64,000 bases of DNA from Leptolyngbya sp. PCC 6406 (GCF_000332095.2 NZ_KI913949.1:1884511-1948510); one strand, 5' to 3'; counted from the stretch's first letter, positions 4,907-44,380 are shown. Notes: generated by a model not told the origin, from the letters alone. Program-made: numbers and translations.

Positions 4907-5202
4907 AACTGTGTCTCTTTCAGTGGGATAACCGTTTGTGACCACGTTTGGGGGGTGGCTCAGGATGGGCTGGCCTACCCTTGTAGTCATTGCGGACTGG
5001 ATCTCAATCACGCGGAACATGACTTCAAGCTTTCTGTGGCCGTGGCGACAGCGCCAGTGCTTAACACATTGTAAATCTTTGCAGTCCCCAGGTGAAAGAG
5101 GGCAGAAGGTTCAGGGACGAATCTGGCTCTACCCTGGGCGAAGCAGTACGTCTAAACTACAATAAAGATGAACTGGTTTTTGCGGTGATTTCTAGGTGAG
5201 AT

Positions 5203-27570: not shown

Positions 27571-28773
27571 ATGAGAACGCTCAGCCTATTTGAGAATGAC
27601 CGCCTCTCCCTCGACCGCAGCATTGAGCTATCGGCTGAGTCGTTGCGCCACTATGGTTCTTTGTATAAGCATTGGGCGATCGCGTTCTCGGGCGGCAAAG
27701 ATTCGACCGCCACTGTTACATTAGTTGCCGATTTGATCGAGCGGGGGCTGGTACCTCGACCCGAGAGCGTCACTGTACTTTATGCCGACACCCGCCAGGA
27801 GTTGCCGCCGCTGCACAATGCCGCCATGGCACTGTTGGACAACCTCAAGGAGCGCGGCTTTGACACCCGTGTCGTCCTGCCCAAGCTTGACCATCGCTAC
27901 TTCGTCTATATGCTGGGGCGGGGGGTACCGCCACCATCCAACACCTTCCGCTGGTGTACCCCCAAGTTGAAAGTAATGAGCATGGAACGGGAACTGGAAA
28001 CCCTGCGCCAAGAGCGGGGGGAAAAGTTTTTGATGCTGACGGGGGTGCGCATTGGCGAAAGCGCCGCCCGTGACCAACGCATTGCCCTGAGCTGTACAAA
28101 GGATGGGGGCGAGTGTGGCCAGGGCTGGTTTCAGCAGACTACCTCGACAGCCGTGGCCGATACCCTGGCCCCATTGCTGCACTGGCGGGTGTGCCATGTG
28201 TGGGACTGGCTGGTGCAGGCGGATATTGAGCTGGGTTTCCCCACCTTTGAGGTTGCCGAGGTCTATGGCCATGACCCGCAGGATGACCTGGGGGAAACGG
28301 AGCCGATGAATGCGCGGACAGGCTGTATTGGGTGCCCGCTGGTGCAGGAAGATGCGGCTCTGGAGCGGGTCTTGGCAAATCCGAAATGGGCGTATTTAGC
28401 GCCATTGCGCCAGTTGCGCCCCCTGTATCGCGAGGTGAAGAAGCCCCAATACCGGCTGCGAAAACATGGAGAAGTCAAAAAGGATGGATCTTTAGCTGCA
28501 AAGCAGGGTCGCCTGGGACCGCTGACCTTAGACACGCGGCGGTGGATGCTGGGGGAAATTCTGCGCATTGAATCGGAGGTCAATACCGGGGCTGTTTTAG
28601 CTGGACAGCCGGAGATTTGCCTGATCGACGGCGAAGAACTGACCCGGATTCGGGAGCTGATTGCCGCTGAGACTTGGCCGGACAAGTGGGACGGCACCGA
28701 ACACCGGGGCGATGAGTGGCTGCCAGAGATTTTGGCAGATGGTAGCGTACAGCCGTTACTCTTTAGTCCTTAG
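27571..28773 (+). CDS. PP-loop (PAPS-reductase/DndC-like) sulfurtransferase family protein
   Basis: 400 residues with the ATP pyrophosphatase motif SGGKDST (40-46), then FRWCTPKLK and a closing ARTGCIGCPLVQED with Cys-x2-Cys. The layout is that of a PAPS reductase-family domain as in DndC, and it lacks the extra C-terminal region of the true DndC at 32139-33803. A helical tail (about 290-400) is specific to this subfamily. It lies divergent in direction but tail-to-tail with dndE: the stops overlap by 11 bp (28763-28773). Two PP-loop enzymes in one island suggest a second thiolation or PT-like activity. Confidence 0.75.
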   Translation: MRTLSLFENDRLSLDRSIELSAESLRHYGSLYKHWAIAFSGGKDSTATVTLVADLIERGLVPRPESVTVLYADTRQELPPLHNAAMALLDNLKERGFDTRVVLPKLDHRYFVYMLGRGVPPPSNTFRWCTPKLKVMSMERELETLRQERGEKFLMLTGVRIGESAARDQRIALSCTKDGGECGQGWFQQTTSTAVADTLAPLLHWRVCHVWDWLVQADIELGFPTFEVAEVYGHDPQDDLGETEPMNARTGCIGCPLVQEDAALERVLANPKWAYLAPLRQLRPLYREVKKPQYRLRKHGEVKKDGSLAAKQGRLGPLTLDTRRWMLGEILRIESEVNTGAVLAGQPEICLIDGEELTRIRELIAAETWPDKWDGTEHRGDEWLPEILADGSVQPLLFSP

Positions 28774-29311: not shown

Positions 29312-31282
29312 TCAACAGAAATAGCCCTCTTTCACGGTGGTTTGTCTATGAGCAGGATCGTATTCCAACAAGTATTCACGGGCGATCGCCCCTTGCTCCC
29401 TCAACCGCTCCACCTCTTCGGCGCGAATTTCGGTATCGGTGGAGAGCAGAATAACTTGGTGGCTGGCCTGGGGAAAGTAGCGATCGACCAGGTGGCGGCG
29501 GTGGGCGGAGTCGAGGCGACCGAGGGGGGTATCGATCGCCACAGGCAGTTGTCGGCCCGAAACCCTGGCCAGCCCCCAGAGGAAAGCGATCGCGAGTAGC
29601 TGTTTTTCGCCCGCAGAGAGGCGTTGGATGGGCAGGGGATCGCCGTCGGTGTCATACAGGTCAAGGCGGAAGGTTACAGCATCGACCATGACCCGATGCA
29701 CCAAGCCAGATTTGTGGAGCAGCAGTAAAAAGTACTGGGTGATGGCTTGCTCCAATTGGCCCAACTTCTTTTCAGTCAGGCGTTGGCGGAAATGGATGAG
29801 GGTTTGCTGGACGCGGGGAGCGGTGGCTAGCAGGGCATTGTCTTTACTGGCATCGATCGCTTGGGAACCATAGTCCGCAAGTTTTTTTCTGAGGGTCTGG
29901 CGATCGCGTTCCAACTCAGCATAATGGCGGCGATGGAGTTCTAAGGTAAATTGGCACTCGTCGCGATGCAGGCAAGCGCGATCGCGGTCGGACTTGAGGC
30001 GATCGTAGTCTTCGGGGGAAGCGGCTTTGGCGAGTTTGGTCTCCAGGGCATCAACGACAGTGGTGAGCGTTTGAATCTGGGTGAGATGGGATTGAGCCAG
30101 TTGCTGTTCGGCGGCGAGTTGGTGGTGCAGGAGGTGATGGAGCTGGGTTAACGCATCATCAGACGCTTGCAGCCATGCCTCGCCGCTGGCGTTGGCGCTG
30201 AGGGCTGCCGTCTCTTGGGCAAGAAAGGCTTGAATCGTCTGCTTCTGGGTGGGTTTGAGCTGGAGCTGGTTCAGGACTGCGAGCAGGCGCTGATCCCGCT
30301 CGGTGAGGGCATCGCGGGCAATGACGGCTTTTTGCTGGGCCTGTTCGTGCTGTCCCTGCTCAGCGGCCTGGGTCAGCAGATCTTGGACGAGGGCCAGGGG
30401 CAGGGTCGAAGCAGCCAGGTCTTGAAGCACCTGGGTTTGGACTTTGATTTCGGTTTGCTGGGTCTTTAACTGCGCCTTGAGCGATGCGGCCTGTTCGGTG
30501 ATGTGGCCCCCGCTGGCGAAGAAGTTATCTTCGGCGACTTGCAGTTCGGTTGCGGCGACAGCGAATGCCGCTTCACGGTCTGCTAGGGTGGCTGCTGCTG
30601 CTGGCAATTCGGTTTCGACTTGTTCGATTTGGCGGCTGAGGGCTTGGAAGGCTTGTTGAGTAGCTTCGTCGCCGAGTTCGGCTTTTTTGCGACTGACGAG
30701 AATGGTGAGGTCATGGGCGAGGCGATCCACCAGTTCTAGCCCCAATACGGCGCGAATGGCGCTGATGACATTGGGGGGTGGGGTTTCTTGTTCGGCGAGG
30801 GCTTTGACTTGTTCGCCATCAAAGAGAAACAGGTTCGATAAACCGACGGGGAGCCAGTCTTCAACCTGTTCATCCCAGGTTTGGGTCAGGATTTCGTTGG
30901 GCCAGCCGTCGAGGTCAACGGTGAGGGTGTCTTTGGTGCCCCGTCGCCAGGTGCGGATGATGCGGATTTTGCCGAGTTTTTCGATACCGCTGATGTGGAG
31001 TACCCGCTCGAATTCAAGGGCGATCGCGGCTTCGGCTTCGGGGGAGGCTTGGGTGTTGACGCATTGGGCGAGGAAGTCGGCGTAGGCCAGATTACGGCGG
31101 CGATCGATGGGGGCACGCTGACCATACAGCACCAGGCGGAGGGCATCCATCAGGGTGGTTTTGCCGCCACCGTTGAGGCCCCCAATGAGGATGATGGGCT
31201 GTTCCGGGGTGGGGCGCAGATCGAGGCGGTGACTTCCGTGGTAGGGGCCGAAATTTTGTAGGATGAGTTCTTGGAGAATCAC
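29312..31282 (-). CDS. dndD: DNA phosphorothioation ATPase DndD (SMC/Rad50-like)
   Basis: 656 residues from the GTG at 31282, chosen because it overlaps the TGA of the HEPN gene as GTGA and starts VILQELILQNFGPYHGSHRL, the conserved DndD opening. Walker A is GLNGGGKT (35-42). A coiled-coil arm (about 200-480) separates it from the C-terminal ATPase half, with the signature-like LSAGEKQLLAIAFLWGLA and a Walker B near LPVAIDTPLGRLDSAHR. DndD supplies ATP-driven DNA handling for phosphorothioation. A longer frame to 31348 exists but would run across the HEPN stop. Confidence 0.92.
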   Translation of the reverse strand: MILQELILQNFGPYHGSHRLDLRPTPEQPIILIGGLNGGGKTTLMDALRLVLYGQRAPIDRRRNLAYADFLAQCVNTQASPEAEAAIALEFERVLHISGIEKLGKIRIIRTWRRGTKDTLTVDLDGWPNEILTQTWDEQVEDWLPVGLSNLFLFDGEQVKALAEQETPPPNVISAIRAVLGLELVDRLAHDLTILVSRKKAELGDEATQQAFQALSRQIEQVETELPAAAATLADREAAFAVAATELQVAEDNFFASGGHITEQAASLKAQLKTQQTEIKVQTQVLQDLAASTLPLALVQDLLTQAAEQGQHEQAQQKAVIARDALTERDQRLLAVLNQLQLKPTQKQTIQAFLAQETAALSANASGEAWLQASDDALTQLHHLLHHQLAAEQQLAQSHLTQIQTLTTVVDALETKLAKAASPEDYDRLKSDRDRACLHRDECQFTLELHRRHYAELERDRQTLRKKLADYGSQAIDASKDNALLATAPRVQQTLIHFRQRLTEKKLGQLEQAITQYFLLLLHKSGLVHRVMVDAVTFRLDLYDTDGDPLPIQRLSAGEKQLLAIAFLWGLARVSGRQLPVAIDTPLGRLDSAHRRHLVDRYFPQASHQVILLSTDTEIRAEEVERLREQGAIAREYLLEYDPAHRQTTVKEGYFC

Positions 31283-31686
31283 GATCGCTCTGAGTTGGTT
31301 AAAAAATCTCTCACTCGCTGAAGGAATTCGCTTGCTTGGCTGTAGCATTCTTCAGCTTGCGCCGCTGAAATATCGGTCAGTTCAGCATAGTCTGCGGTTA
31401 GCCGTAGCTCGAAACTACTGTGTAGCCAGACAGACATTTCTTTGTTGAAAATGCCGGGTTTAACAAAGTCACGGTCAAATAAAGATATGACACCCTTGTG
31501 TTTCGATGTTTCTAGTTGTCGCGCCACCAAAAGCGCCAGAACGGCATAAAACATTGCGTAATAAAATCGATTGATGGCACCTTTGTAGAATTTTGATTGC
31601 ATAAGTAAACGTCCCTCAGACACAGCATCCTGTGACTGTTGTAGTCGGTCTGCAACCAGAATTTGAATATCCTCTGGTTGGCTCAT
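31279..31686 (-). CDS. HEPN-domain protein embedded in the dnd operon
   Basis: 135 residues from the ATG at 31686, which overlaps the nucleotidyltransferase stop as ATGA. The region YKGAINRFYYAMFYAVLALL is the HEPN helix pair; RFYYAMFYA replaces the more usual YYAMFHA, so the conserved His is a Tyr. HEPN proteins of this type are RNases held or modified by an MNT partner. The stop overlaps the dndD start (GTGA), so HEPN and DndD are translated in tandem. Confidence 0.85.
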   Translation of the reverse strand: MSQPEDIQILVADRLQQSQDAVSEGRLLMQSKFYKGAINRFYYAMFYAVLALLVARQLETSKHKGVISLFDRDFVKPGIFNKEMSVWLHSSFELRLTADYAELTDISAAQAEECYSQASEFLQRVRDFLTNSERS

Positions 31687-32138: not shown

Positions 32139-33803
32139 TTACTCAGTTTCAGCCGGGGATTGGCCGAATTTGAGGCGGCTCCAGGCAGTTTGAAAGGCGG
32201 CAACATCGATGCTGCCGTTGTTTTGCTCGTCGGCTTTGTTTTTTTTGGGTTTTTGCGTTTCGGCTGGCTGGCTTTTGGGGTTGGGGGCAACCCCTTGGGC
32301 TTGTTTCATGTCGCGGATGGCTTCCGCTTGTTGGATGGCGACGGTTTTGGGTAGGGCGCTGGTCTCGAAGCAGGATTCGAGGGCTTTGTAGACACCCATG
32401 CGGCGGCTCATGGTGTAGTATTTGCGCTCGGTGTCGAGGAGTTTGGTGACGAGTTCGAGATACATGGGGTCTTCGTCGCAGAGGGTGGACAAGATGGCCC
32501 ATTCGTCGGGGCCGAGGATGGTGGTATCGGCGGGGGGGCGGGGGTCTTGGAATTTTTGGTTAGTGACTTCGTGGTAGATAGAGGGGAGAGAATCATCGAA
32601 TTCATGTTTCTCTTCGCGCCAAATACGGCGAATTTCGCTAAGTTCTTGGAGACTAATTAGCTCAATATCTCGCATTTCTTCGGGAGCATTTTCTTTCGCA
32701 TTTATCTGAGCTTGGAGTAGCCGTCTTAGCCATTCTTCACGCCAATAGCGAGTATAAGGGCCAGGAATTGGAACAATTTGAGTCTCATTGTCTTTGCGGC
32801 GCTCAAAAAGCTGAACTTTACCCGTCATACGTCGGAAATCACGTCGATCATGGTCATCATAGACATCCAGTTCATTACGCAGATCAAGTAATGGCTGCAT
32901 CCAGGCTTTCTCATCATCATTCTGGATCATTGCAGACATCGACTTATCTTCGCTGACCAGGGTACAGACCCAACAGCCAAAGCGCGAATCCCCACAACTA
33001 GGGGTAGAGGTATCAATCACAAATGGACATTCGTTATCTTCCGTTGCTCCCCGATACAGAGTGAATAAGTCCTTATTGCTATGTCCCCAAGGATTAGGGA
33101 ATTGCATTAGGTAAAGCCAGACCTCATCATCCCGCCAGTTTGCTAATGGGCTATAAACCAAGGAGTTAGGTAACTGTCCCCTGTATAAAAGAGAACTTTT
33201 GAGATTTTCAGATCTATTTAGTCGATCGCTAACTGTGCCAACCTCATGATCATTCATGACACCAGCTCGACGGGCGCTCTCGGCTTTACGGGTGCCTAGA
33301 ACTACAATTACTTCGCCTTTGACCCGAACTACGTTTTGGATGTAGCGATTAGAAGGCCAAATCTTGAGTCGTTCAGTACACCAGCGGAACATGTGCCTTG
33401 GGGCTGGATAACCTTTACCAATCAGGTTTACCCAAAAGGTGTCTTTGACCTCTGGCTGCAAAAGACGCGGAACAAAGGGCAGATTTTGCTCTTTGGCAAC
33501 TAAACCCATTCGGTCAAGAGACTGGCGCATCCAGGCCGCCACGATTGGGTTTTCGACCAAAGTATCGGTTGTTAGAACGTGGATTGGCTTAGTTCGCTTG
33601 TCTTCTGGCAACTCAGCTACAGCATTCCAAATGAGTTGTAGAACACAGGTACTATCTTTGCCCCCTGAATAACCAACCACCCAAGGAATTGAGTCTAAGC
33701 AGTAAAGCTCCTGAATCTCAGCCTTCAGTGTCTTGATGTCTTCAATTAGTTCAGGAACGGTACGCTGACCTTGAGGCTTTTGGGCCTCGTCTATCATGAC
33801 CAT
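32139..33803 (-). CDS. dndC: DNA phosphorothioation sulfurtransferase DndC
   Basis: 554 residues. The PP-loop motif is SGGKDST (46-52) in WVVGYSGGKDSTCVLQ, then FRWCTERLKIWPSNRYI. A Cys cluster TPSCGDSRFGCWVCTLVSED can hold the 4Fe-4S centre of DndC. DndC takes sulfur from a cysteine desulfurase (DndA or IscS; not in the window) and activates it for insertion into DNA. GAGG lies 7 nt before the ATG at 33803. The last 70 residues are Pro/Lys/Gln-rich and probably flexible. Confidence 0.95.
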   Translation of the reverse strand: MVMIDEAQKPQGQRTVPELIEDIKTLKAEIQELYCLDSIPWVVGYSGGKDSTCVLQLIWNAVAELPEDKRTKPIHVLTTDTLVENPIVAAWMRQSLDRMGLVAKEQNLPFVPRLLQPEVKDTFWVNLIGKGYPAPRHMFRWCTERLKIWPSNRYIQNVVRVKGEVIVVLGTRKAESARRAGVMNDHEVGTVSDRLNRSENLKSSLLYRGQLPNSLVYSPLANWRDDEVWLYLMQFPNPWGHSNKDLFTLYRGATEDNECPFVIDTSTPSCGDSRFGCWVCTLVSEDKSMSAMIQNDDEKAWMQPLLDLRNELDVYDDHDRRDFRRMTGKVQLFERRKDNETQIVPIPGPYTRYWREEWLRRLLQAQINAKENAPEEMRDIELISLQELSEIRRIWREEKHEFDDSLPSIYHEVTNQKFQDPRPPADTTILGPDEWAILSTLCDEDPMYLELVTKLLDTERKYYTMSRRMGVYKALESCFETSALPKTVAIQQAEAIRDMKQAQGVAPNPKSQPAETQKPKKNKADEQNNGSIDVAAFQTAWSRLKFGQSPAETE

Positions 33804-36144: not shown

Positions 36145-36612
36145 CTAGTCCTCAAGCAGGCTAATGTCAAACAAGTCGCTCACGAATTCACTCTTTTGTC
36201 TCTCTGAGAGTAATAACAGCTGTAGCTGGCTAGTATAATTGCTGGAACCTAGCATAGCTTCTTGAATAATAGATAAACCACCATTTGCATAGCCTTCAAA
36301 TATTTCCACACAGTCGAGTTCACTTCTTTCGCTATTCCCGAGGACTTTAGGGTTTTGAGTCGTACTGACGGCTAATAAGTTTAATATCTGGCTTTTGTTT
36401 CTAGACGCGAAGTGATCCCAAGGTATCGGATCAGGATCTTTACGAGATGCTTCTTCAATAGGAATATACTTATCGCGCTTAACCCCTAAGCATGCAGCGA
36501 ATATCATCAAATCTACATAAGTCTGAAATGGCCCGGTCGATCCCTCCCCCGCCCGCAGCGCCTTCACCAGCTTCGCCTTATCCTTCGCCACCTTAATTCT
36601 GATATCAGCCAT
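36145..36612 (-). CDS. Dnd system-associated protein 4
   Basis: 155 residues. The start MADIRIKVAKDKAKLVKALR followed by FQTYVDLMIFAACLGVKRDK and KDPDPIPWDHF matches the family named dnd system-associated protein 4 from memory. Members occur in PT restriction clusters, where they may support the restriction arm. The first 51-76 bp of this gene are duplicated at 37191-37241 and at 43183-43258. It is followed by the AIPR gene. Confidence 0.75.
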   Translation of the reverse strand: MADIRIKVAKDKAKLVKALRAGEGSTGPFQTYVDLMIFAACLGVKRDKYIPIEEASRKDPDPIPWDHFASRNKSQILNLLAVSTTQNPKVLGNSERSELDCVEIFEGYANGGLSIIQEAMLGSSNYTSQLQLLLLSERQKSEFVSDLFDISLLED

Positions 36613-36643
36613 TTTTCTGTACAGTAAAGAGCAGAAGCAAAAG

Positions 36644-36976
36644 CTAGGTATTCAATATTTCAACAAGCTTAGTAATTATTTCTCCTACCTTGTCAGATGT
36701 AATGCTTCCTGCCTTGTAAAGCAAAATCTTTTTGTCAGCCGTAAAAATTCTGTTAGGGCGGACATTGCTATCGCGTTGCAAGCTTCCAGTCAAAAAATCA
36801 GCCTCAGTCAGTAGAACAGCATATTCATCCCTTACACCCTGGCTTGTAATTTGACAAAGAATCACATCATCGCCTCGCAGATTTGCAATCACCAAAGCCG
36901 GACGTCGCTTCGACTGAGACAAATCTGAAAACGGAAACGGTACTACCACCACATCACCCTTTACAAATCTTGCCAA
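36644..36976 (-). CDS. MazF/PemK-type toxin
   Basis: 110 residues with the MazF/PemK opening FVKGDVVVVPFPFSDLSQSK and then RRPALVIANLRGDDVILCQI. The RPALVI segment and the following strand are the RNase core of the fold. Toxins of this type cut mRNA. The gene overlaps its antitoxin by 16 bp (36961-36976). A copy of the Dnd-protein 4 start lies just beyond the antitoxin. Confidence 0.9.
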   Translation of the reverse strand: MARFVKGDVVVVPFPFSDLSQSKRRPALVIANLRGDDVILCQITSQGVRDEYAVLLTEADFLTGSLQRDSNVRPNRIFTADKKILLYKAGSITSDKVGEIITKLVEILNT

Positions 36977-37155
36977 GCCTCATCCTCCTCCGGCAACAAC
37001 CAATCTTTCTGCAAAGTTGATTCGCTTAGTAAAGCAGTTTCTAAGCTTTCTTGTCCATACTCCAGCCTTAAAAATCTCAAAAAAACTAGCACCTGGTCTA
37101 GAAGATAATTAGGCAAGTGCTCCAATTCTTGCAAAATCAAATCTCTTGGTGTCAT
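36961..37155 (-). CDS. DUF2281-like antitoxin of the MazF pair
   Basis: 64 residues. MTPRDLILQELEHLPNYLLDQVLVFLRFL is the DUF2281 pattern: an N-terminal helix, a short loop and a Leu-rich helix that often precedes MazF or PIN toxins. The acidic tail LPEEDEAWQDL would cover the toxin. Translation is coupled by overlap to the toxin. Confidence 0.82.
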   Translation of the reverse strand: MTPRDLILQELEHLPNYLLDQVLVFLRFLRLEYGQESLETALLSESTLQKDWLLPEEDEAWQDL

Positions 37156-37190
37156 AGTAACTCCCCCTCAAAATTTGATTGAACTTTCGC

Positions 37191-37241
37191 ATTCACCAGC
37201 TTCGCCTTATCCTTCGCCACCTTAATTCTGATATCAGCCAT
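37191..37241 (-). repeat. Duplicated start of the Dnd-associated protein 4 gene (copy 2)
   Basis: 51 bp identical to the first 17 codons of the gene at 36145-36612 (MADIRIKVAKDKAKLVN). The frame stops soon after. It ends at the ATG, the same end as the other duplicate at 43183-43258. Confidence 0.9.
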
Positions 37242-37270
37242 TGTGCTTGAGGAGAGTAGTGGACGTGAGG

Positions 37271-37657
37271 TTATTGGGTAAGGGCGTTTTCGACAGTGGT
37301 GTAGAGAGATTGTACCTGGGCTATAGCCACTTGTCGATTTATCGGCTCATCTACTGCCACTAAAGCATCATAGCGCAACTGCACAGCAAACAAATTAAAC
37401 TCCACTAATTCCCAAAATTCGGAAACATCACACTCTAAATCTTCCAACTCTTGTAATAGTAGACTCAAATCATGAGTGTAAGGAAAGTCCACTGCAAAAT
37501 AGCTAAGCCAAGCCTTCAAAGCCTTTTCTGCTGTCTGCTGTACATGGAACCCGAAAATTTCATCGGCAAAGGTGTCTCGATCTAGCATTCCATACAACGC
37601 CCTCAGATCTCGTAAAGCTGCTTCCAGCAAAATCCTAGCGGCTTCCAGATTTCTCAT
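37271..37657 (-). CDS. HEPN-domain protein, second MNT-HEPN pair
   Basis: 128 residues with the HEPN core EIFGFHVQQTAEKALKAWLS, the usual FH.QQ.AEK.LKA pattern of the MNT partner. A helix bundle follows with THDLSLLLQELE. It overlaps the nucleotidyltransferase gene by 23 bp (37635-37657). It is a different subfamily from the HEPN in the dnd operon. Confidence 0.88.
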   Translation of the reverse strand: MRNLEAARILLEAALRDLRALYGMLDRDTFADEIFGFHVQQTAEKALKAWLSYFAVDFPYTHDLSLLLQELEDLECDVSEFWELVEFNLFAVQLRYDALVAVDEPINRQVAIAQVQSLYTTVENALTQ

Positions 37658-37988
37658 AAATCACTTGTCCCTCTCTGATGGCCCTAGCGATAACATGATT
37701 TTTAGTTTGGCTCCATTCAGCCACCTCGTCAGCGCTATACAGCAGAATGTCAATGGGCAATTTGAATCTAGCCAAGGCTCGCCAAACCTTAGCGGCTTCC
37801 TTACGACGACTCCGGTTAACGCCAAATGGTTTGTTCTCCACAATGAGTAGGTCAACATCAGACTGTTGATTGGCCTCTCCCCTCGCCTGAGAACCAAACA
37901 AAATCACTGTGTCAGGATCGACTTCTCCGACAATCGTATTCGTCATGTCTTGCAGGAGTTCCGCCGTCAATGTAGCTGTTTTGGCCAT
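37635..37988 (-). CDS. MNT nucleotidyltransferase, second MNT-HEPN pair
   Basis: 117 residues from the ATG at 37988 (AAAGGT upstream; an earlier ATG at 38000 is possible). LFGSQARGEANQQSDVDLLIV is the GSxARGxxxxxSDxD motif. Like other MNT enzymes, it probably modifies its HEPN partner. Pairs of this kind are frequent in cyanobacterial islands and are independent of the one in the dnd operon. Confidence 0.88.
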   Translation of the reverse strand: MAKTATLTAELLQDMTNTIVGEVDPDTVILFGSQARGEANQQSDVDLLIVENKPFGVNRSRRKEAAKVWRALARFKLPIDILLYSADEVAEWSQTKNHVIARAIREGQVIYEKSGSR

Positions 37989-38011
37989 AACCTTTACCAT
38001 CCTGATTGCCT

Positions 38012-38095
38012 TTAGTCCAAGGGTAAGACGTATTGCTCTACCGCCACAACTTCCGTCCATCCATAGTCATAGGCACTCGGTTTCAAATACGCCAT
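38012..38095 (-). pseudogene. Short remnant ORF, 27 aa
   Basis: Frame MAYLKPSAYDYGWTEVVAVE plus seven residues, then TAA. It looks like the first residues of a lost gene. It lies between Uma2 and the MNT gene. I cannot name its family. Confidence 0.3.
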
Positions 38096-38107
38096 TTATT
38101 CCTATCC

Positions 38108-38671
38108 TTAGCGCTTTGGCGACAAAACCTGAGCCACCGACAGCGTTACCCCTGCAAACTGAGGCGACTGCAACACCCCATCCACCCCCAGCTCCTCAGC
38201 CTCATACCACCCATCCACCAGCTTTAGCACCGTCACCACCGCCTTTGCCGGGTCAACAATCCAGTATTCAGGAATCCCCCGCGCCGCATACTCAGAGCGT
38301 TTGTAGCGATAATCGCGGTCTTCGTTCTCCTTGCCCGGTGACACCACCTCCACTACCAACAGCGGCGCAGGCATCTCTTCTGTAATCGTGCTGCGACGAC
38401 GACCTGCCAGGGCTGTTACTAGGTCTTCACCAATAATCATTAAATCCGGTAACCGTGCCCGACCCGCCACAATCATCTCGGTCTCATTTCGCCGCACTCG
38501 GTTAAAGGGCAACACCTTCAAAAACTGGGCCATTAAATATCCAGCAACCAGCACATTCCCTTCACTCTCCGGCGGCATTTCAATAATTTCCCCGTCCACA
38601 AATTCGCAGAGAGCTTCCGGGCCATCCTCAAAGCTTAGATAATCCACCAGCGAGAGTTTTGTCGCAACCAT
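38108..38671 (-). CDS. Uma2-family protein in the dnd island
   Basis: 187 residues. LSLVDYLSFEDGPEALCEFV and DGEIIEMPPES open the fold; LPDLMI gives the PD Asp, VVEVVSPGKENEDRDYRYKR the catalytic Glu and Lys, and YAARGIPEYWIVDPAK the final segment. A complete domain with no coiled coil. It lies 62 bp downstream of the SMC-like gene. Confidence 0.9.
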   Translation of the reverse strand: MVATKLSLVDYLSFEDGPEALCEFVDGEIIEMPPESEGNVLVAGYLMAQFLKVLPFNRVRRNETEMIVAGRARLPDLMIIGEDLVTALAGRRRSTITEEMPAPLLVVEVVSPGKENEDRDYRYKRSEYAARGIPEYWIVDPAKAVVTVLKLVDGWYEAEELGVDGVLQSPQFAGVTLSVAQVLSPKR

Positions 38672-38733
38672 CGTCTAATTAACGCTTAACTGCCATCCAC
38701 GCTTGCCCCCATTCTACTCACCCCAATACCCCA

Positions 38734-40785
38734 TCACATCTCCACCTTCACCACCTCCGTCCAAGTAAATTTATTCGGGCTGCGCTTCACCAGCGGATAG
38801 CTACGCCCGTGCCGCTCCATCGCTTCCAACTCAGCATCCTCCTTAGCGGTGTAGTACACCAGCACATACTCCGCCCCCACCGATGGCTCCATCTCCCGCT
38901 CCACCTCATTCAGCCATTGAGTCTTGCTCACCAGCACCACCAATTGATCCGCCAGGGTGGTAATCGCCTCAGCAATGTTGCTGCGGTTCACCGAGTCCAA
39001 ACTGCCAAAGGGCGAATCCATCACAATCGGGAAGCCACCCCCATCGAGCCCAATGGCCGAGTGCTTCTTACTCCAGTAGCGCACCCGCTCAATCACGCTG
39101 CCAATAAAGGCCAGACTCAGAATCTGGTTTTGCCCCGTGGAGGTCGCCACCGTTGCCTCCCCCTCCAAGCTAGGGTCGATCAGCCGCAGCTCATAGTTCT
39201 CCGTCAGCTTCGGCAGGTAGGGCGTAAAGGAAATTCGGCGAAAAATTTCCCGCACCTTCAGTTCCAGCACCGCCCGAAACTTGAGATCCACCCGGTGCTT
39301 GACCTCATTCAGTCGGGCCACCGCATCCTGGGCCGCTTCGATTTGCCGCTTCACACGGGCCTGTTCCTTATCCTTCGCCTTGTGGGCTTTGATTTGCTTA
39401 TCCACCTCCGCGATCGCATCATCCAACCGCTGAATTTCATCCTTCAGCACCGCATCCTCCCGGTGACGGTCGGTGATGGCTTGCTCCGTTGCCTCCAGCC
39501 GCTGCTCAATGCCCTGCACATTCACATCTTCGCTGCCCTTGAGCTGGTCGCGAATATCACTGACTTGGTTTTGCAGACGGACAATGCGCTGACGCAGACG
39601 CTCAATACTGGCCTGCTCTTGGTCAATTTCGGCCCAAAATTCCGGGATCTGCCGCTCCAAGCTTTCCACCTCACCACTCATCTTGATCACGGCTTCTTCC
39701 ACATCCTGCAAGCCCCCCTTCCCCAGCCAGGTCTCAACTTCCCGGCGGTGGGTCGTGCCTGCCGTGAGGTGGGCACCGCAAATACAAGTTTCTTGATCGA
39801 GCAAATCTTGCACAAACTGGCGCTTAATGCCCGCAGGTAGCTCCCCCTTACGCCGCAGATCCGCAGCCAGCTCCTTGAACTGGGTAATGGTGTCGTCCAA
39901 AAACACCATATAGCCCCGCGAAGAAATCGTGCGCCGCAAGCGATCTTCGCTGCGCCCAAGCTGCTGCTCTAGGTTTTCCATTTCATCTTGCAGCGCCTTG
40001 CGCCGCTCCTGAATCTCCTTAACGCTAGCTAGATCCATGAGCTGGGCGTTGTACCGTTGCTTCAGGTCTTCCTGGTCGAGCAAATCCTGGACGATCGCTG
40101 CACGGCGGGTTTCTTTCTGCGCTTTTTCGGCTTCTAGGCTGGCTTTTTCCGTCATCAGCCGCTTGGTTTCGGTGTCGCCAATGTCCCGGAGTTCTTTTTC
40201 CAGTTGTTTGCGGGCATAGTCGAGGTGATTAATGCCCCGCTCCAGCATTTCCACACTCAACAGGGTTTTAATGGCGGTGGCCATATCGGCCCGGTTTTCG
40301 GTTTTGACAATTTGCTCAATGCGCTCCCCGTCAAAGAAGAAGTAGCGGTGCAGGCTAATGGGCAGCACACTGCCAATGGCATCTTCCACCTCGTCCTTGT
40401 CTGGAATGAGCTTGCCGTTAATTTTGAGCTGTAGGGTGCTAGCGCTCTCCGATGACTCACCCTCGGCGGTTTTGGTGCCCAGACAAGACCGCCGCGCCTG
40501 GTATTCTTTGCCGTTGTGCTCAAACAGCACCTCGGCCCAGCATTCCACTTGGCTACCGGGGGCGGTTTCGGCCACGGCGCGGTTGTTGATCAAGGGGCCA
40601 GGGGCAAAGGCGGGGCTGCGCTGGTCATAGAGCACCCAGGTAAACCCGTTAAGCAGGGTGGTTTTGCCCGCCCCGTTGTTGCCATGGATAATTGTGACGC
40701 TGCGGCCATTTTGATGGGCCAGCTCTAGGGCAACCTCGCCCCAAAACTGCCGAAAGTTAAACAGCTTCAGCGACAACAGCTTCAT
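38734..40785 (-). CDS. SMC/Rad50-like ATPase of the PT restriction module
   Basis: 683 residues. Walker A is GNNGAGKTT (35-43), in a DndD-like opening LLSLKLFNFRQFWGEVAL. Long coiled coils (about 190-500) carry a CICGAHL zinc-hook-like turn near residue 332. The ATPase half ends with a Q-rich signature TSTGQNQILSLAFIGSVIER and IVMDSPFGSLD as Walker B. It overlaps the 62-aa gene by 4 bp. This is the restriction-side ATPase; the modification-side DndD is the separate gene at 29312. Confidence 0.8.
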   Translation of the reverse strand: MKLLSLKLFNFRQFWGEVALELAHQNGRSVTIIHGNNGAGKTTLLNGFTWVLYDQRSPAFAPGPLINNRAVAETAPGSQVECWAEVLFEHNGKEYQARRSCLGTKTAEGESSESASTLQLKINGKLIPDKDEVEDAIGSVLPISLHRYFFFDGERIEQIVKTENRADMATAIKTLLSVEMLERGINHLDYARKQLEKELRDIGDTETKRLMTEKASLEAEKAQKETRRAAIVQDLLDQEDLKQRYNAQLMDLASVKEIQERRKALQDEMENLEQQLGRSEDRLRRTISSRGYMVFLDDTITQFKELAADLRRKGELPAGIKRQFVQDLLDQETCICGAHLTAGTTHRREVETWLGKGGLQDVEEAVIKMSGEVESLERQIPEFWAEIDQEQASIERLRQRIVRLQNQVSDIRDQLKGSEDVNVQGIEQRLEATEQAITDRHREDAVLKDEIQRLDDAIAEVDKQIKAHKAKDKEQARVKRQIEAAQDAVARLNEVKHRVDLKFRAVLELKVREIFRRISFTPYLPKLTENYELRLIDPSLEGEATVATSTGQNQILSLAFIGSVIERVRYWSKKHSAIGLDGGGFPIVMDSPFGSLDSVNRSNIAEAITTLADQLVVLVSKTQWLNEVEREMEPSVGAEYVLVYYTAKEDAELEAMERHGRSYPLVKRSPNKFTWTEVVKVEM

Positions 40786-40970
40786 TTGACACTATCCTTC
40801 ACAATTTTGAGCACGTCGGCTCGAATCCGGGGGCGATCGCTGGACAAATTGGCTTTCTCTAGCCGAATCACCTCCCGAATGATCCGCTCCACCGCTGGGG
40901 GAGCCGTGGTGATGGGCGCTTCGATGTCGTCTTGGCTGGGGTTGGAGGGAGAAGCCATGGGATTGATCAC
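40782..40970 (-). CDS. 62-aa DNA-modification-system-associated small protein
   Basis: 62 residues: a Pro/Ser-rich head, then PAVERIIREVIRLEKANLSS DRPRIRADVLKIVKD forming two helices. Small proteins of this kind are annotated as DNA modification system-associated small proteins in other PT islands. It overlaps both neighbours by 4 bp (ATGA), which fixes its start and shows the three are made together. It may bridge the helicase and the SMC-like protein. Confidence 0.7.
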   Translation of the reverse strand: MINPMASPSNPSQDDIEAPITTAPPAVERIIREVIRLEKANLSSDRPRIRADVLKIVKDSVK

Positions 40971-43096
40971 AAATCTAACAAGTCATACCGTTCTTGCAGG
41001 GGATATAGAATTTTACGCGCTGCCCCGGCATTCAGCGCCAGATCGGCAAATTCCACAAATCGGGTCAGCTCCCCCCGCAAGACCCGGCGCTCTATCTGCC
41101 AATAGTCCTCGCCCAAATCCGGGGGCACCACCACCATGTCAAACAGTTCCGCCTGGTGTTTACCCGGCGATCGCCGCAGAATCCGCCCCCGCCGCTGAAT
41201 AAATTGGCGTGGGTTGCTACTGCTGGCCAGGATCACAGCGGTTCGGATGGCGGGGATATCGACCCCTTCATCTAGGCAGCGAATCGCGACCAGTCCCTTG
41301 AGATGGCCTTTCTCAAAGGCATAGCGCAGATCATCCCGTTCCCCCAGGGAGGTCTCGGCGATATAGGGTTCGACCTTGTAGCCCAGACGGTAGTTGAGCA
41401 GTTCCGTCACCGCCTCTAGCTGGCGGCGACTTTCGGCGGTGGTGTCATCTTCTACGGAGCCATCGCCGCAATAGAACAGGGTGTGGTCGGTGTGGAGTCG
41501 GTTTGCCATTAACGCCCTAAGCTGGGTGAGCTTGTTCTCGGCAGTGCAAATGAGCCTAGCCCGCTCAAACAACAGTCGCTCTAAGGCGGTGTTGTCTTGC
41601 CTGCCACCGATGCCCAGGGCGCGGCCAATGGCGGCGGTGAGTTCGGCGTAGCGCTCCACCTCCTCTGGGGTCAGATCGATCAGGATTGGGGTGTAGGTGT
41701 ACTGCACCAGCGCCCCCGCCTGGATGGCATCCTTTAAGGTGAATTCGGGCTCTAGCACGGGGCCAAAATAATCAAAAATGCGATCGCTACCGGCCTGATC
41801 AAAATGGCGCTCTGGGGTCGCCGATAGGGCCAGCCGCAGTTTAATCCTTTCCGGTAAGCAATTGGCTAGGTTCTCGGCCCCCAGGTTGTGGGCTTCATCG
41901 CCAATGATCATCACCAACTGGGGCAGGAACGACAGTTGAGACTGAAGCGAGTCTTGCCGCAGGGTGGCGTTGGTCGTAATGACGGTAACAAAGGGTTGTC
42001 GCCCCCCCATCAGGGCTAATAACTGAGATTGCAGGTCACGCTGCCAGGTTTGCACCCGGTCAAAGGCCAAAATCGGCTGTAGGCCAAACTTGCGGCTTTC
42101 TGCGGCCCACTGGGTGACCAAGTGACGATAGGGACAGACAATGAGCAGGGCTTGCAGGGATTTGTTTTGGGCTTGGCACTTTTGGTAGAGTTCTGCCGCG
42201 ATCGCCAGCGCCGTAATCGTCTTGCCGCTGCCCGTCGCCATCTTCAGTGTGCCCCGTCCCTTGTTCTTGAACCAGTTCGCGATCGCCTGTTGCTGATAGG
42301 GGCGCAGGCTGATCTCCCCAGGCAGCACGGGAACCCCGTTCGAGACGGAAGGGAAATTGGGCTGGGTCACCTCATAATGCCCTGGGGGACTGGCAGCCGT
42401 GGGTTCCCGGTGGGGGGGAGTCGCGGGGCCATAGCGCTGGATCAGCGATCGCGCCACCGCTTCCGGAAAGGTGATCACCTCCACCTGGGGGGTCTGGTCA
42501 TGCCACAACGTCTGAAAGTGCTGGGCCTTTTGTAAAGCCCGCTGACTCACCCGCTGATCCCACGAGCAATAGACATCCAAACACTCAAAGTTATCCACCA
42601 AGGCACTGGCGCTTTCATTGGCAGAGCCAGTAAAGGCCACCACCTGCCCCTCGCCATCCTCAAAAATCCCTAGCTTTTCGTGATAGATCCCCTGTTGGCC
42701 CAGCGTTTTGGGAATCGCCAGCTTGATTTCTAGTAAGCCCCGACTCAGCAACCACGCCAAGGCCCCTAGCCGATCCTGTAGCACCTGGGGCAGCTCCACC
42801 GCTAACTCTCGCAACAGCGCCGCTTCAATCACCGCTTCCCGCTGGCTCAGCCCCTGCTCAATCGCTTGCACATCCGATGCAGACAATTGCGGCGAAGTGA
42901 TTAACCGCATCCGTCCCCCAGAGCGGATAAAGGCCGTCAACCCCTGGGCCACCGCCGCCATGGATGAGCTGGAGAAGAAACCCACCGCCCGGTCATAGGT
43001 CGTAGCCTGCTCCAGACAAGGGATGTAGAAATCTTGAATCAGGCGATCGCGATCGCTGCGATACTCATCCCGAATCTGTAGCGCTTTCAGGCTCAA
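40967..43096 (-). CDS. PT-system restriction protein: PLD nuclease fused to a DEAH helicase
   Basis: 709 residues. The N-terminal phospholipase-D-type half has IYHEKLGIFEDG (His139, Lys141) and FTGSANESASAL (157-162). A superfamily 2 helicase follows: LRPYQQQAIANWF, ATGSGKT (287-293), GDEAHN (DEAH at 400-403), LALSATPERHF and the C-terminal QRRGRILR. This is the architecture of the family called DNA phosphorothioation system restriction enzyme. It should cut DNA lacking the PT mark. The module begins with this gene and is read into the small protein and the SMC-like ATPase. Confidence 0.82.
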   Translation of the reverse strand: MSLKALQIRDEYRSDRDRLIQDFYIPCLEQATTYDRAVGFFSSSSMAAVAQGLTAFIRSGGRMRLITSPQLSASDVQAIEQGLSQREAVIEAALLRELAVELPQVLQDRLGALAWLLSRGLLEIKLAIPKTLGQQGIYHEKLGIFEDGEGQVVAFTGSANESASALVDNFECLDVYCSWDQRVSQRALQKAQHFQTLWHDQTPQVEVITFPEAVARSLIQRYGPATPPHREPTAASPPGHYEVTQPNFPSVSNGVPVLPGEISLRPYQQQAIANWFKNKGRGTLKMATGSGKTITALAIAAELYQKCQAQNKSLQALLIVCPYRHLVTQWAAESRKFGLQPILAFDRVQTWQRDLQSQLLALMGGRQPFVTVITTNATLRQDSLQSQLSFLPQLVMIIGDEAHNLGAENLANCLPERIKLRLALSATPERHFDQAGSDRIFDYFGPVLEPEFTLKDAIQAGALVQYTYTPILIDLTPEEVERYAELTAAIGRALGIGGRQDNTALERLLFERARLICTAENKLTQLRALMANRLHTDHTLFYCGDGSVEDDTTAESRRQLEAVTELLNYRLGYKVEPYIAETSLGERDDLRYAFEKGHLKGLVAIRCLDEGVDIPAIRTAVILASSSNPRQFIQRRGRILRRSPGKHQAELFDMVVVPPDLGEDYWQIERRVLRGELTRFVEFADLALNAGAARKILYPLQERYDLLDL

Positions 43097-43182
43097 GGTG
43101 CAACGCTCAACAGCAGGTTGCCTTCGAGTATAGACAAGGCACTGGAGCAGGGTTCGCAGTTCATAACCTAATGTTCATAAAG

Positions 43183-43258
43183 TCGATCCATCCCCCGCCC
43201 GCAGCGCCTTCACCAGCTTTGCCTTATCCTTCGCCACCTTAATTCTGATATCAGCCAT
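43183..43258 (-). repeat. Duplicated start of the Dnd-associated protein 4 gene (copy 3)
   Basis: 76 bp nearly identical to the start of the gene at 36145-36612, coding MADIRIKVAKDKAKLVKALR and a few more. It ends at the ATG. Sits between the PLD-helicase gene and a Uma2 fragment, near the outer edge of the island. Confidence 0.9.
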
Positions 43259-43264
43259 TCCAAA

Positions 43265-43387
43265 TTAGGGTTGATCATAAATTTCTCCGCGCAAAATCTC
43301 CGCCTTGCGATCGCCCAAAGTCCCCATATCAACCATGGGATGATAATCGTCAATGCTCCACTTCACCGTGGTCAGAGTAGCGACCAT
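43265..43387 (-). pseudogene. Uma2 N-terminal fragment (40 aa)
   Basis: Reads MVATLTTVKWSIDDYHPMVD then MGTLGDRKAEILRGEIYDQP and stop. This is the opening of a Uma2 domain, as in the gene at 14797 (RWTIADYHRM, LLGDRRVELLNG). The ATG follows the TAG of the full Uma2 gene with no gap. The rest of the domain is missing; next comes the Dnd-gene start copy. Confidence 0.8.
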
Positions 43388-44053
43388 CTAGCCTCCCTGC
43401 CTGTCTTGGCTAAACAGCTCAAGCAGCCAACGGGTAATGGCGGTATCATCCTCACCCTGGGAGCGCTCCAGCGCCGTCTCTAGGGTCGCCATTGCCAACC
43501 CCGGCAGCACCTGAGACTCAGTAATTTGACCACTGCGGCGATCGGCAATCTCAAAGGCAATCACCTGAGCCGCCTGCACATCCACCACCCAGTATTCGGT
43601 ACTGCCCAGCCGCTCATACAGCAATCTCTTTTTGCCCAAATCGTCATTCAGCGTCGTCGAGGCAATTTCAATCACCAGTTGCGGCGGACCATATTGCAAC
43701 ACATCAATTGGTCGATTGTCGCGCGGCGGCAGGCCAAATCCCTGTCCCACATAAAAAGCAATATCGGGCTGGGCATCTTGCAGACCCGTTTTGCGAAACG
43801 TGGTGTTAGTCAGCTCCACCATGCGTAGACCCTTCAGCGTGGCATACAGCACCACCAACGTCGAAACAATCGAGTTTTCCCGTCCGTGTAAGGCACCCAG
43901 GGGCGACATCTCCACCCTCATCCAACCGTCATCAAAATAGCAGCGGGCATCCTGCGGCACCCCAGATTCCAAAAGCGCCCCATACTCCGCCCAAGTCGCC
44001 CGCACCCACTCATCCGTGACAATGGGTTGCGATACTGAGGCTGTGCTAACCAT
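43388..44053 (-). CDS. Uma2-family protein at the island edge
   Basis: 221 residues from the ATG at 44053 (an earlier in-frame codon lies at 44071). QDAQPDIAFYVGQ has the PD Asp, QLVIEIASTTLNDDLGKKRL the Glu and Lys, and YERLGSTEYWVVDVQ the last segment. A C-terminal tail of about 50 residues is Ala/Glu/Leu-rich. It is the fourth complete Uma2 gene in the window and the outermost gene of the island. Confidence 0.9.
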   Translation of the reverse strand: MVSTASVSQPIVTDEWVRATWAEYGALLESGVPQDARCYFDDGWMRVEMSPLGALHGRENSIVSTLVVLYATLKGLRMVELTNTTFRKTGLQDAQPDIAFYVGQGFGLPPRDNRPIDVLQYGPPQLVIEIASTTLNDDLGKKRLLYERLGSTEYWVVDVQAAQVIAFEIADRRSGQITESQVLPGLAMATLETALERSQGEDDTAITRWLLELFSQDRQGG

Positions 44054-44380
44054 AACGTTCCCCACTGCCATCCACGCTTGCCCCCATTCTACTCACCCCA
44101 TCCCCCCAATATCGGGCACCCGCCCACCGGGCAACCACCCTATAGCTTCGTTGCTCAGGAGGAGCAACCGACCCAACCCAAAAGGTTGGGTAATGCCCGG
44201 AAGAAACAGAGGAAAGCCTGTCATTGCGATCGCAGGGAGGGATCCTGGTCTGGCTACACCGAGATGCTACTCCCAGAGAATCCGCTTCGCGTCTACGACT
44301 CCGCTTCGCTCCATTACTCCTGCGGAGTCGCTTCGCGAACAACATGACAAAGGAGAGCCTGTCATTCCATTTATTTGTGC
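44054..44380. repeat. Gap with GCTTCGCG-type repeats
   Basis: 327 bp. GCCTGTCATT is present twice (about 44217 and 44359), and GCTTCGCG/CGCTTCGC pairs lie at about 44283-44338. No gene, integrase fragment or copy of the tRNA-Pro end was found. Confidence 0.5.

Follow-up and report, generated by a model that had tools for sequence, protein, structure and literature searches.

The repeated gene start and its gene

We analysed a stretch of 64,000 nucleotides (nt) from Leptolyngbya sp. PCC 6406 (NZ_KI913949.1:1884511-1948510; the window), in which a Dnd island carries the start of one gene three times. Coordinates are positions in the window, and genes and scars are on the minus strand unless a plus sign is given. 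The intact gene encodes a protein that NCBIfam names DNA phosphorothioation-associated protein 4 (TIGR04062) and that we assign, by synteny, to PbeD of PbeABCD, a defence system linked to phosphorothioation. The two truncated copies are termed the inner and outer stubs (Table 1).

The three copies are in register and lie at 36536-36613 (the intact gene, used as reference), 43182-43259 (outer) and 37191-37241 (inner). The outer copy comprises 76-78 nt of the pbeD start and is 97% identical to the reference over 78 bp; 75 of 77 positions in the outer copy and 50 of 51 in the inner copy match the intact gene. Searching the whole 5.78-Mb genome with the pbeD start returned only these three copies, the two extra ones with E-values of 1.4e-31 and 9.6e-21. 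Similarity ends at the ATG, with 14-17 of the 60 nt upstream identical and local alignment scores at the level of shuffled sequence. The alignment and the genome search thus bear out the original prediction, made from the window alone, of a gene start present three times with similarity ending at the ATG. Homology of the native region upstream of pbeA to two relatives (our labels L089 and L090) ends exactly at 43181, the edge of the outer stub.

Table 1. Features of the island discussed in the text.
Feature	Position	Strand	Basis or remark
pbeD by synteny, the intact 'Dnd-associated protein 4' gene	36145..36612	-	TIGR04062, 135.9 bits
MazF/PemK toxin, slot cargo	36644..36976	-	directly upstream of pbeD
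MazE-like antitoxin candidate, slot cargo	36961..37155	-	named by place beside MazF; no family match
Inner stub (scar), first ~51 nt of pbeD	37191..37241	-	between HEPN gene and MazE
HEPN toxin-like gene, slot cargo	37271..37657	-	domain match
MNT nucleotidyltransferase, type VII antitoxin-like, slot cargo	37635..38060	-	NF047752, below its cut-off
Uma2-1, slot cargo	38108..38671	-	likewise follows pbeC directly in G390
Repeat D2, inner copy, Uma2 leader	38689..38733	-	directly after pbeC stop
pbeC (ABC ATPase), core; left edge of cargo slot	38734..40785	-	PADLOC PbeC, E=2.8e-240
62-amino-acid open reading frame, pbeB candidate	40782..40970	-	placement between pbeA and pbeC
pbeA (PLD/HKD domain and SF2 helicase), core	40967..43096	-	PADLOC PbeA, E=1.9e-244; TIGR04095
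Outer stub (scar), first 76-78 nt of pbeD	43182..43258	-	joined directly to native pbeA upstream region
Uma2-3, 5' remnant (40 codons) of a third Uma2 gene	43259..43387	-	joined to outer-stub ATG; translation MVATLTTVKWSIDDYHPMVDMGTLGDRKAEILRGEIYDQP*
Uma2-2, displaced cargo	43388..44071	-	Pfam Uma2
Repeat D2, outer copy, Uma2-2 leader with TAGAAT box	44064..44108	-	repeat comparison

The assignment to pbeD rests on the PbeA and PbeC matches and on gene order. Ruegeria and two haloarchaea have pbeA, a small-protein gene, pbeC and then a gene for a protein of 142-152 amino acids (aa) that abuts or overlaps pbeC. This last protein is TIGR04062 in Ruegeria, while the haloarchaeal proteins match the family at E 1e-11, below its curated cut-off; the window protein is 20-30% identical to these counterparts. 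The 62-aa open reading frame in the pbeB place is 45% identical to a Pseudanabaena small protein at the same place and 16-19% identical to others, and it has no PADLOC match. Genes dndC and dndD are linked to the island (DndC 32139-33803, DndD 29312-31348, both above cut-offs).

Passages of Xiong et al. 2019 (PMC6459918) report PbeABCD as an antiviral system in archaea, with a PbeB of 66 aa and a PbeD of 152 aa, and passages of PMC10853773 reinterpret PbeD as a DndE cognate and PbeC as a CxC ABC ATPase. The window resembles the archaeal system described there in having pbeA, pbeC, a TIGR04062 protein of ~150 aa at the pbeD place, a small open reading frame at the pbeB place, and dndC and dndD nearby. 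Unlike archaeal pbeABCD, described as one transcriptional unit, the window has pbeC and pbeD separated by 2.1 kb of cargo; most of the cyanobacterial islands surveyed likewise have a cargo slot, and pbeD 5' stubs mark past exchanges.

Two further gene features were observed. A second, divergent DndC-like gene (27571-28773, +) lies on the left side of the island, with a TIGR03183 score of 133.5 bits that is below the cut-off, and is also found in several relatives. Separately, the PbeA-like gene of L089 (5109-8005, G329 C4) looks mosaic, its first ~80 residues being 73% identical to the window PbeA and the rest ~30%.

A cargo slot between pbeC and pbeD

In this cyanobacterial Pbe island, a cargo slot of variable content separates pbeC from pbeD. 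Across ~75 islands, with pbeA and pbeC upstream and pbeD downstream, it measures 8-3779 bp and holds differing cargo: Uma2 genes, MNT/HEPN, MazE/MazF, PIN, or almost nothing. In the window it contains, in order, Uma2-1, MNT, HEPN, the inner stub, MazE and MazF. Different cargo between the copies in related islands had been proposed as a check on the original prediction; cargo does vary, and dead stubs recur between cargo and a full pbeD. The idea that the two scars bracket one cargo block from MazF to the PLD-helicase is not supported. Among the genes between the scars are pbeA, pbeC and the pbeB candidate, and pbeA-pbeB-pbeC is a conserved core, always upstream of the slot; the supposed block is thus part cargo (MazF to Uma2-1) and part core (pbeC, pbeB and pbeA).

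PIN and HEPN genes in Dnd/Pbe neighbourhoods were already noted in passages of PMC10853773. As in the modular defence hotspots in genomic islands of Pseudomonas described in passages of PMC12629846, variable defence or toxin-antitoxin cargo lies between conserved neighbours; unlike them, the slot sits within a defence operon and retains truncated starts of the downstream core gene.

Gene decay within the slot was also seen: in G341 and G298 (L051, 2466-2612, and L050), what is left of MazF between Uma2-2 and pbeD has internal deletions. In four islands with the pbeD allele called type B below (L048, L052, L053 and L055), the pbeA-pbeC interval is 1.0-1.8 kb as against ~0.2 kb, which suggests a second variable slot around pbeB.

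Stubs in other islands are remains of a former pbeD

We divided pbeD proteins into four parts, searched 100 islands with the parts and added a wider DNA search. The extra pbeD fragments found by the four-part search were of the 5' end only: the two in the window and one each in six other islands (G329, G196, G189, G303 (C131), G264 and G082), all of the latter directly upstream of an intact pbeD. The wider search added two stubs of another family (G247 and G099), bringing the stub-bearing islands besides the window to eight, in two families. No genuine fragment of the remaining ~80% of pbeD was found in the 100 islands, the few other hits being chance matches or unrelated coiled coils in distant genes, and the pbeD start was absent outside pbeD-bearing islands in 63 family genomes. 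A stub travelling as the end of a cassette was thus rejected, there being no solo stubs away from pbeD islands in these genomes.

In eight of the eight other islands the intact gene (type B) is a different allele from the stub. The stubs are therefore not duplicates of the gene behind them; they are the remains of a former pbeD. One pair of islands gives the states before and after: G135 has Uma2 followed by a full pbeD-A, and G247 has a homologous Uma2, a 63-nt pbeD-A stub and then pbeD-B, the two also sharing homologous pbeA and pbeC. There are about four independent breakpoints (nt ~53, 63, ~75 and 78), and the chance that four out of four fall within nt 53-78 is ~2e-5, assuming uniform breakpoints.

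A truncated pbeD also occurs in L058 (G371), where a pbeD cut off after ~70 codons (4912-5166) lies directly downstream of a full Uma2-3-like gene on a contig without an intact copy.

Some pbeD genes are mosaic in their 5' third

The intact pbeD of the window is itself a mosaic, with its first ~102 nt of the Nodosilinea type and the rest from another allele. Identity to Nodosilinea-type genes is 92% over the first 102 nt and ~50% afterwards; 0 of 2,000 permutations reached this contrast, and four pairs that include the window pbeD are the top outliers among 2,556 pairs. Three Nostoc pbeD genes have similar breaks at nt ~143-155 (again 0 of 2,000 permutations). Such breaks in separate lineages show homology switching partner within the 5' third of pbeD, as would fit the originally suggested exchange at the gene start.

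How the stubs may have formed

These findings suggest a mechanism that we consider somewhat probable, in which imported DNA that brings its own cargo and pbeD recombines at the conserved 5' end of the resident pbeD, leaving a dead 5' stub. Donor DNA carrying other cargo plus its own pbeD, perhaps taken up by natural transformation, would recombine with the resident island. The downstream join would be homologous, within pbeD or beyond it. The upstream join might be homologous in the conserved first ~100-150 nt of pbeD, giving a clean cargo swap, or non-homologous at nt ~50-80 of the resident pbeD, in which case homology would be one-sided and the first 53-78 nt of the resident gene would remain as a dead stub before the newcomer. 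On this model stubs start where the shared sequence does, at the ATG, since everything upstream is unshared cargo, and are truncated at the 3' side because the homologous anchor lies downstream. In the window, such events would have left the inner stub between HEPN and MazEF and, preceded by an older piece of slot (D2-Uma2-2-Uma2-3'), the outer stub upstream of pbeA. Relatives did not yield the native sequence upstream of the window MazE, which was sought to fix the inner joint. Homology-facilitated illegitimate recombination, as described in passages of PMC3240628, is alike in that one homologous and one non-homologous join would give one-sided stubs; it differs in that we infer the process here from sequence, with competence and donor DNA hypothetical.

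The two explanations offered in the original prediction, repeated insertion of cargo at the gene start and short homology for cassette exchange, largely stand.

Several observations weigh against recombination with incoming DNA. At 97-98% identity, the window stubs are closer to the intact gene than to any relative found (92% over the first 84 nt). Both stubs carry the same 5' type, so the inner stub may have arisen in another event than the one behind the mosaic break at nt 102. Among the relatives, none was found with HEPN followed directly by a window-type pbeD, and microhomology could not be demonstrated at the joints. The chance figure for the breakpoints depends on uniformity, and the independence of the events was judged by eye. 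Finally, stubs of type-B islands keep a coding-like substitution pattern, with a ratio of non-synonymous to synonymous changes (pN/pS) of 0.27 over five stubs of 25 codons.

The first of these points also speaks for local duplication, which we regard as unlikely: tandem duplication, or insertion with a long target duplication, would have created each extra start locally, with no incoming pbeD and with later deletion of some cargo or core. The outer stub runs into the native region upstream of pbeA, which is the junction expected from a pbeA-to-pbeD tandem duplication, and upstream of pbeA, D2-Uma2-2 repeats what the slot contains. For restriction-modification genes, moreover, insertion with long target duplication has been reported (Nobusato et al. 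2000, as cited in passages of PMC1643837 and PMC3031569). As there, defence genes lie between long direct repeats of neighbouring gene sequence: the window has direct repeats flanking inserted genes (the two stubs and the intact gene), and their identity is compatible with a single-target origin. Unlike in that pattern, a single gene's ATG marks where the repeats begin. Furthermore, the flanking 'repeat' is a different allele in the eight other islands, so no target duplication occurred there, a single-target origin does not hold, and simple duplication is impossible. Local duplication also needs the coincidence of two duplications each beginning exactly at the ATG, and its tandem version requires that an entire copy of pbeA-pbeC was lost. 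Local duplication remains a plausible origin of the two stubs in the window itself, which nearly match the intact gene.

Retention of the pbeD 5' end as a functional element (a leader peptide, translational coupler, operator or recombination site) seems improbable. The inner stub has a 29-codon open frame whose TGA overlaps the MazE ATG, the pN/pS of the type-B-island stubs is near that of the intact gene start (0.24), and over 21 codons the G247 stub encodes the same residues as the window gene, despite many synonymous changes. Against this, most of the 100 islands have no stub, type-B pbeD stands in gene order without one in G180, G161, G006 and G040, no stub occurs away from pbeD islands, and stubs decay, the ATG being lost in G264 and G099 and non-conservative changes being present in G196 and G082. 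The coding-like pattern may stem from divergence of the source genes before their truncation, and five stubs of 25 codons are too few data for a selection test, which was set aside.

Duplication of the whole gene followed by decay, with only the conserved start still recognizable, is very improbable. The start is indeed the most conserved part of pbeD, but when the middle and 3' parts of 14 pbeD proteins were used as queries, no island yielded a remnant beyond the start. Full decaying copies at the scar positions, named in the original prediction as what would speak against it, were likewise looked for and not found. Other identifiable sequence instead follows both stubs at once, namely the native region upstream of pbeA and, 36 nt on, the MazE start. 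A site-specific mobile cassette is not supported, as a domain scan of the slot genes revealed no recombinase or transposase domain and the end sequence was not present at other sites in the 63 genomes.

Recombination of incoming DNA at the pbeD start could have a further consequence. The conserved 5' end may act as a two-way exchange joint, with cargo swapped upstream and the PbeD body downstream, although we hold this extension to be rather doubtful. PbeD is a DndE-like subunit that has been proposed in the literature to set DNA specificity; if the joint does work both ways, the stubs would be a record of specificity-subunit replacement, and a swap of PbeD bodies would provide a natural experiment on what PbeD recognizes. 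The slot is located inside a characterized type of anti-phage operon, and the 5' stub of a downstream core gene is a simple mark of islands with exchanged cargo or PbeD allele, which makes the turnover of defence cargo countable across cyanobacteria. The pbeC-pbeD cargo slot and the recurrent pbeD 5' stubs as marks of exchange are likely to be new, descriptions of either being absent from the passages covered by a limited literature search.

The outer stub is part of a displaced slot fragment

The outer stub and Uma2-2 are a displaced fragment of the slot, either a relic of an earlier arrangement of the island or a copy of slot sequence. Uma2-2 lies between pbeC and pbeD in three relatives (L051, L054 and L106) and upstream of pbeA in the window, where the order is D2 leader, Uma2-2, Uma2-3 remnant, the 76-78-nt pbeD stub and native sequence upstream of pbeA. 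In G250 the full third Uma2 gene follows Uma2-2. In G341, G303 and LEGE 06152, Uma2-2 is upstream of a single full pbeD, but the cargo edges are different.

The two D2 copies form a second repeat in the island (38689-38733 and 44064-44108, 93% identical), missed by the original prediction. As a motif marking cassette ends D2 was rejected; it is a leader with a TAnAAT box before Uma2 genes and cassettes, and it also precedes the Uma2-2 next to glmS in G312, outside a Dnd island.

A Uma2-2 cassette, with Uma2-1 or Uma2-3, lies directly downstream of glmS in two relatives, L092 (G312) and L093 (G250), outside Dnd islands; the Uma2 group has therefore moved between loci. Between the D2 leader and the ornithine racemase gene, a dispersed repeat of ~200 bp (44161-44368) sits at the right edge of the window's island; it recurs three times elsewhere in the genome, in copies of 86-89%. 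Near this repeat, at 44373, homology of the flank to G341 begins.

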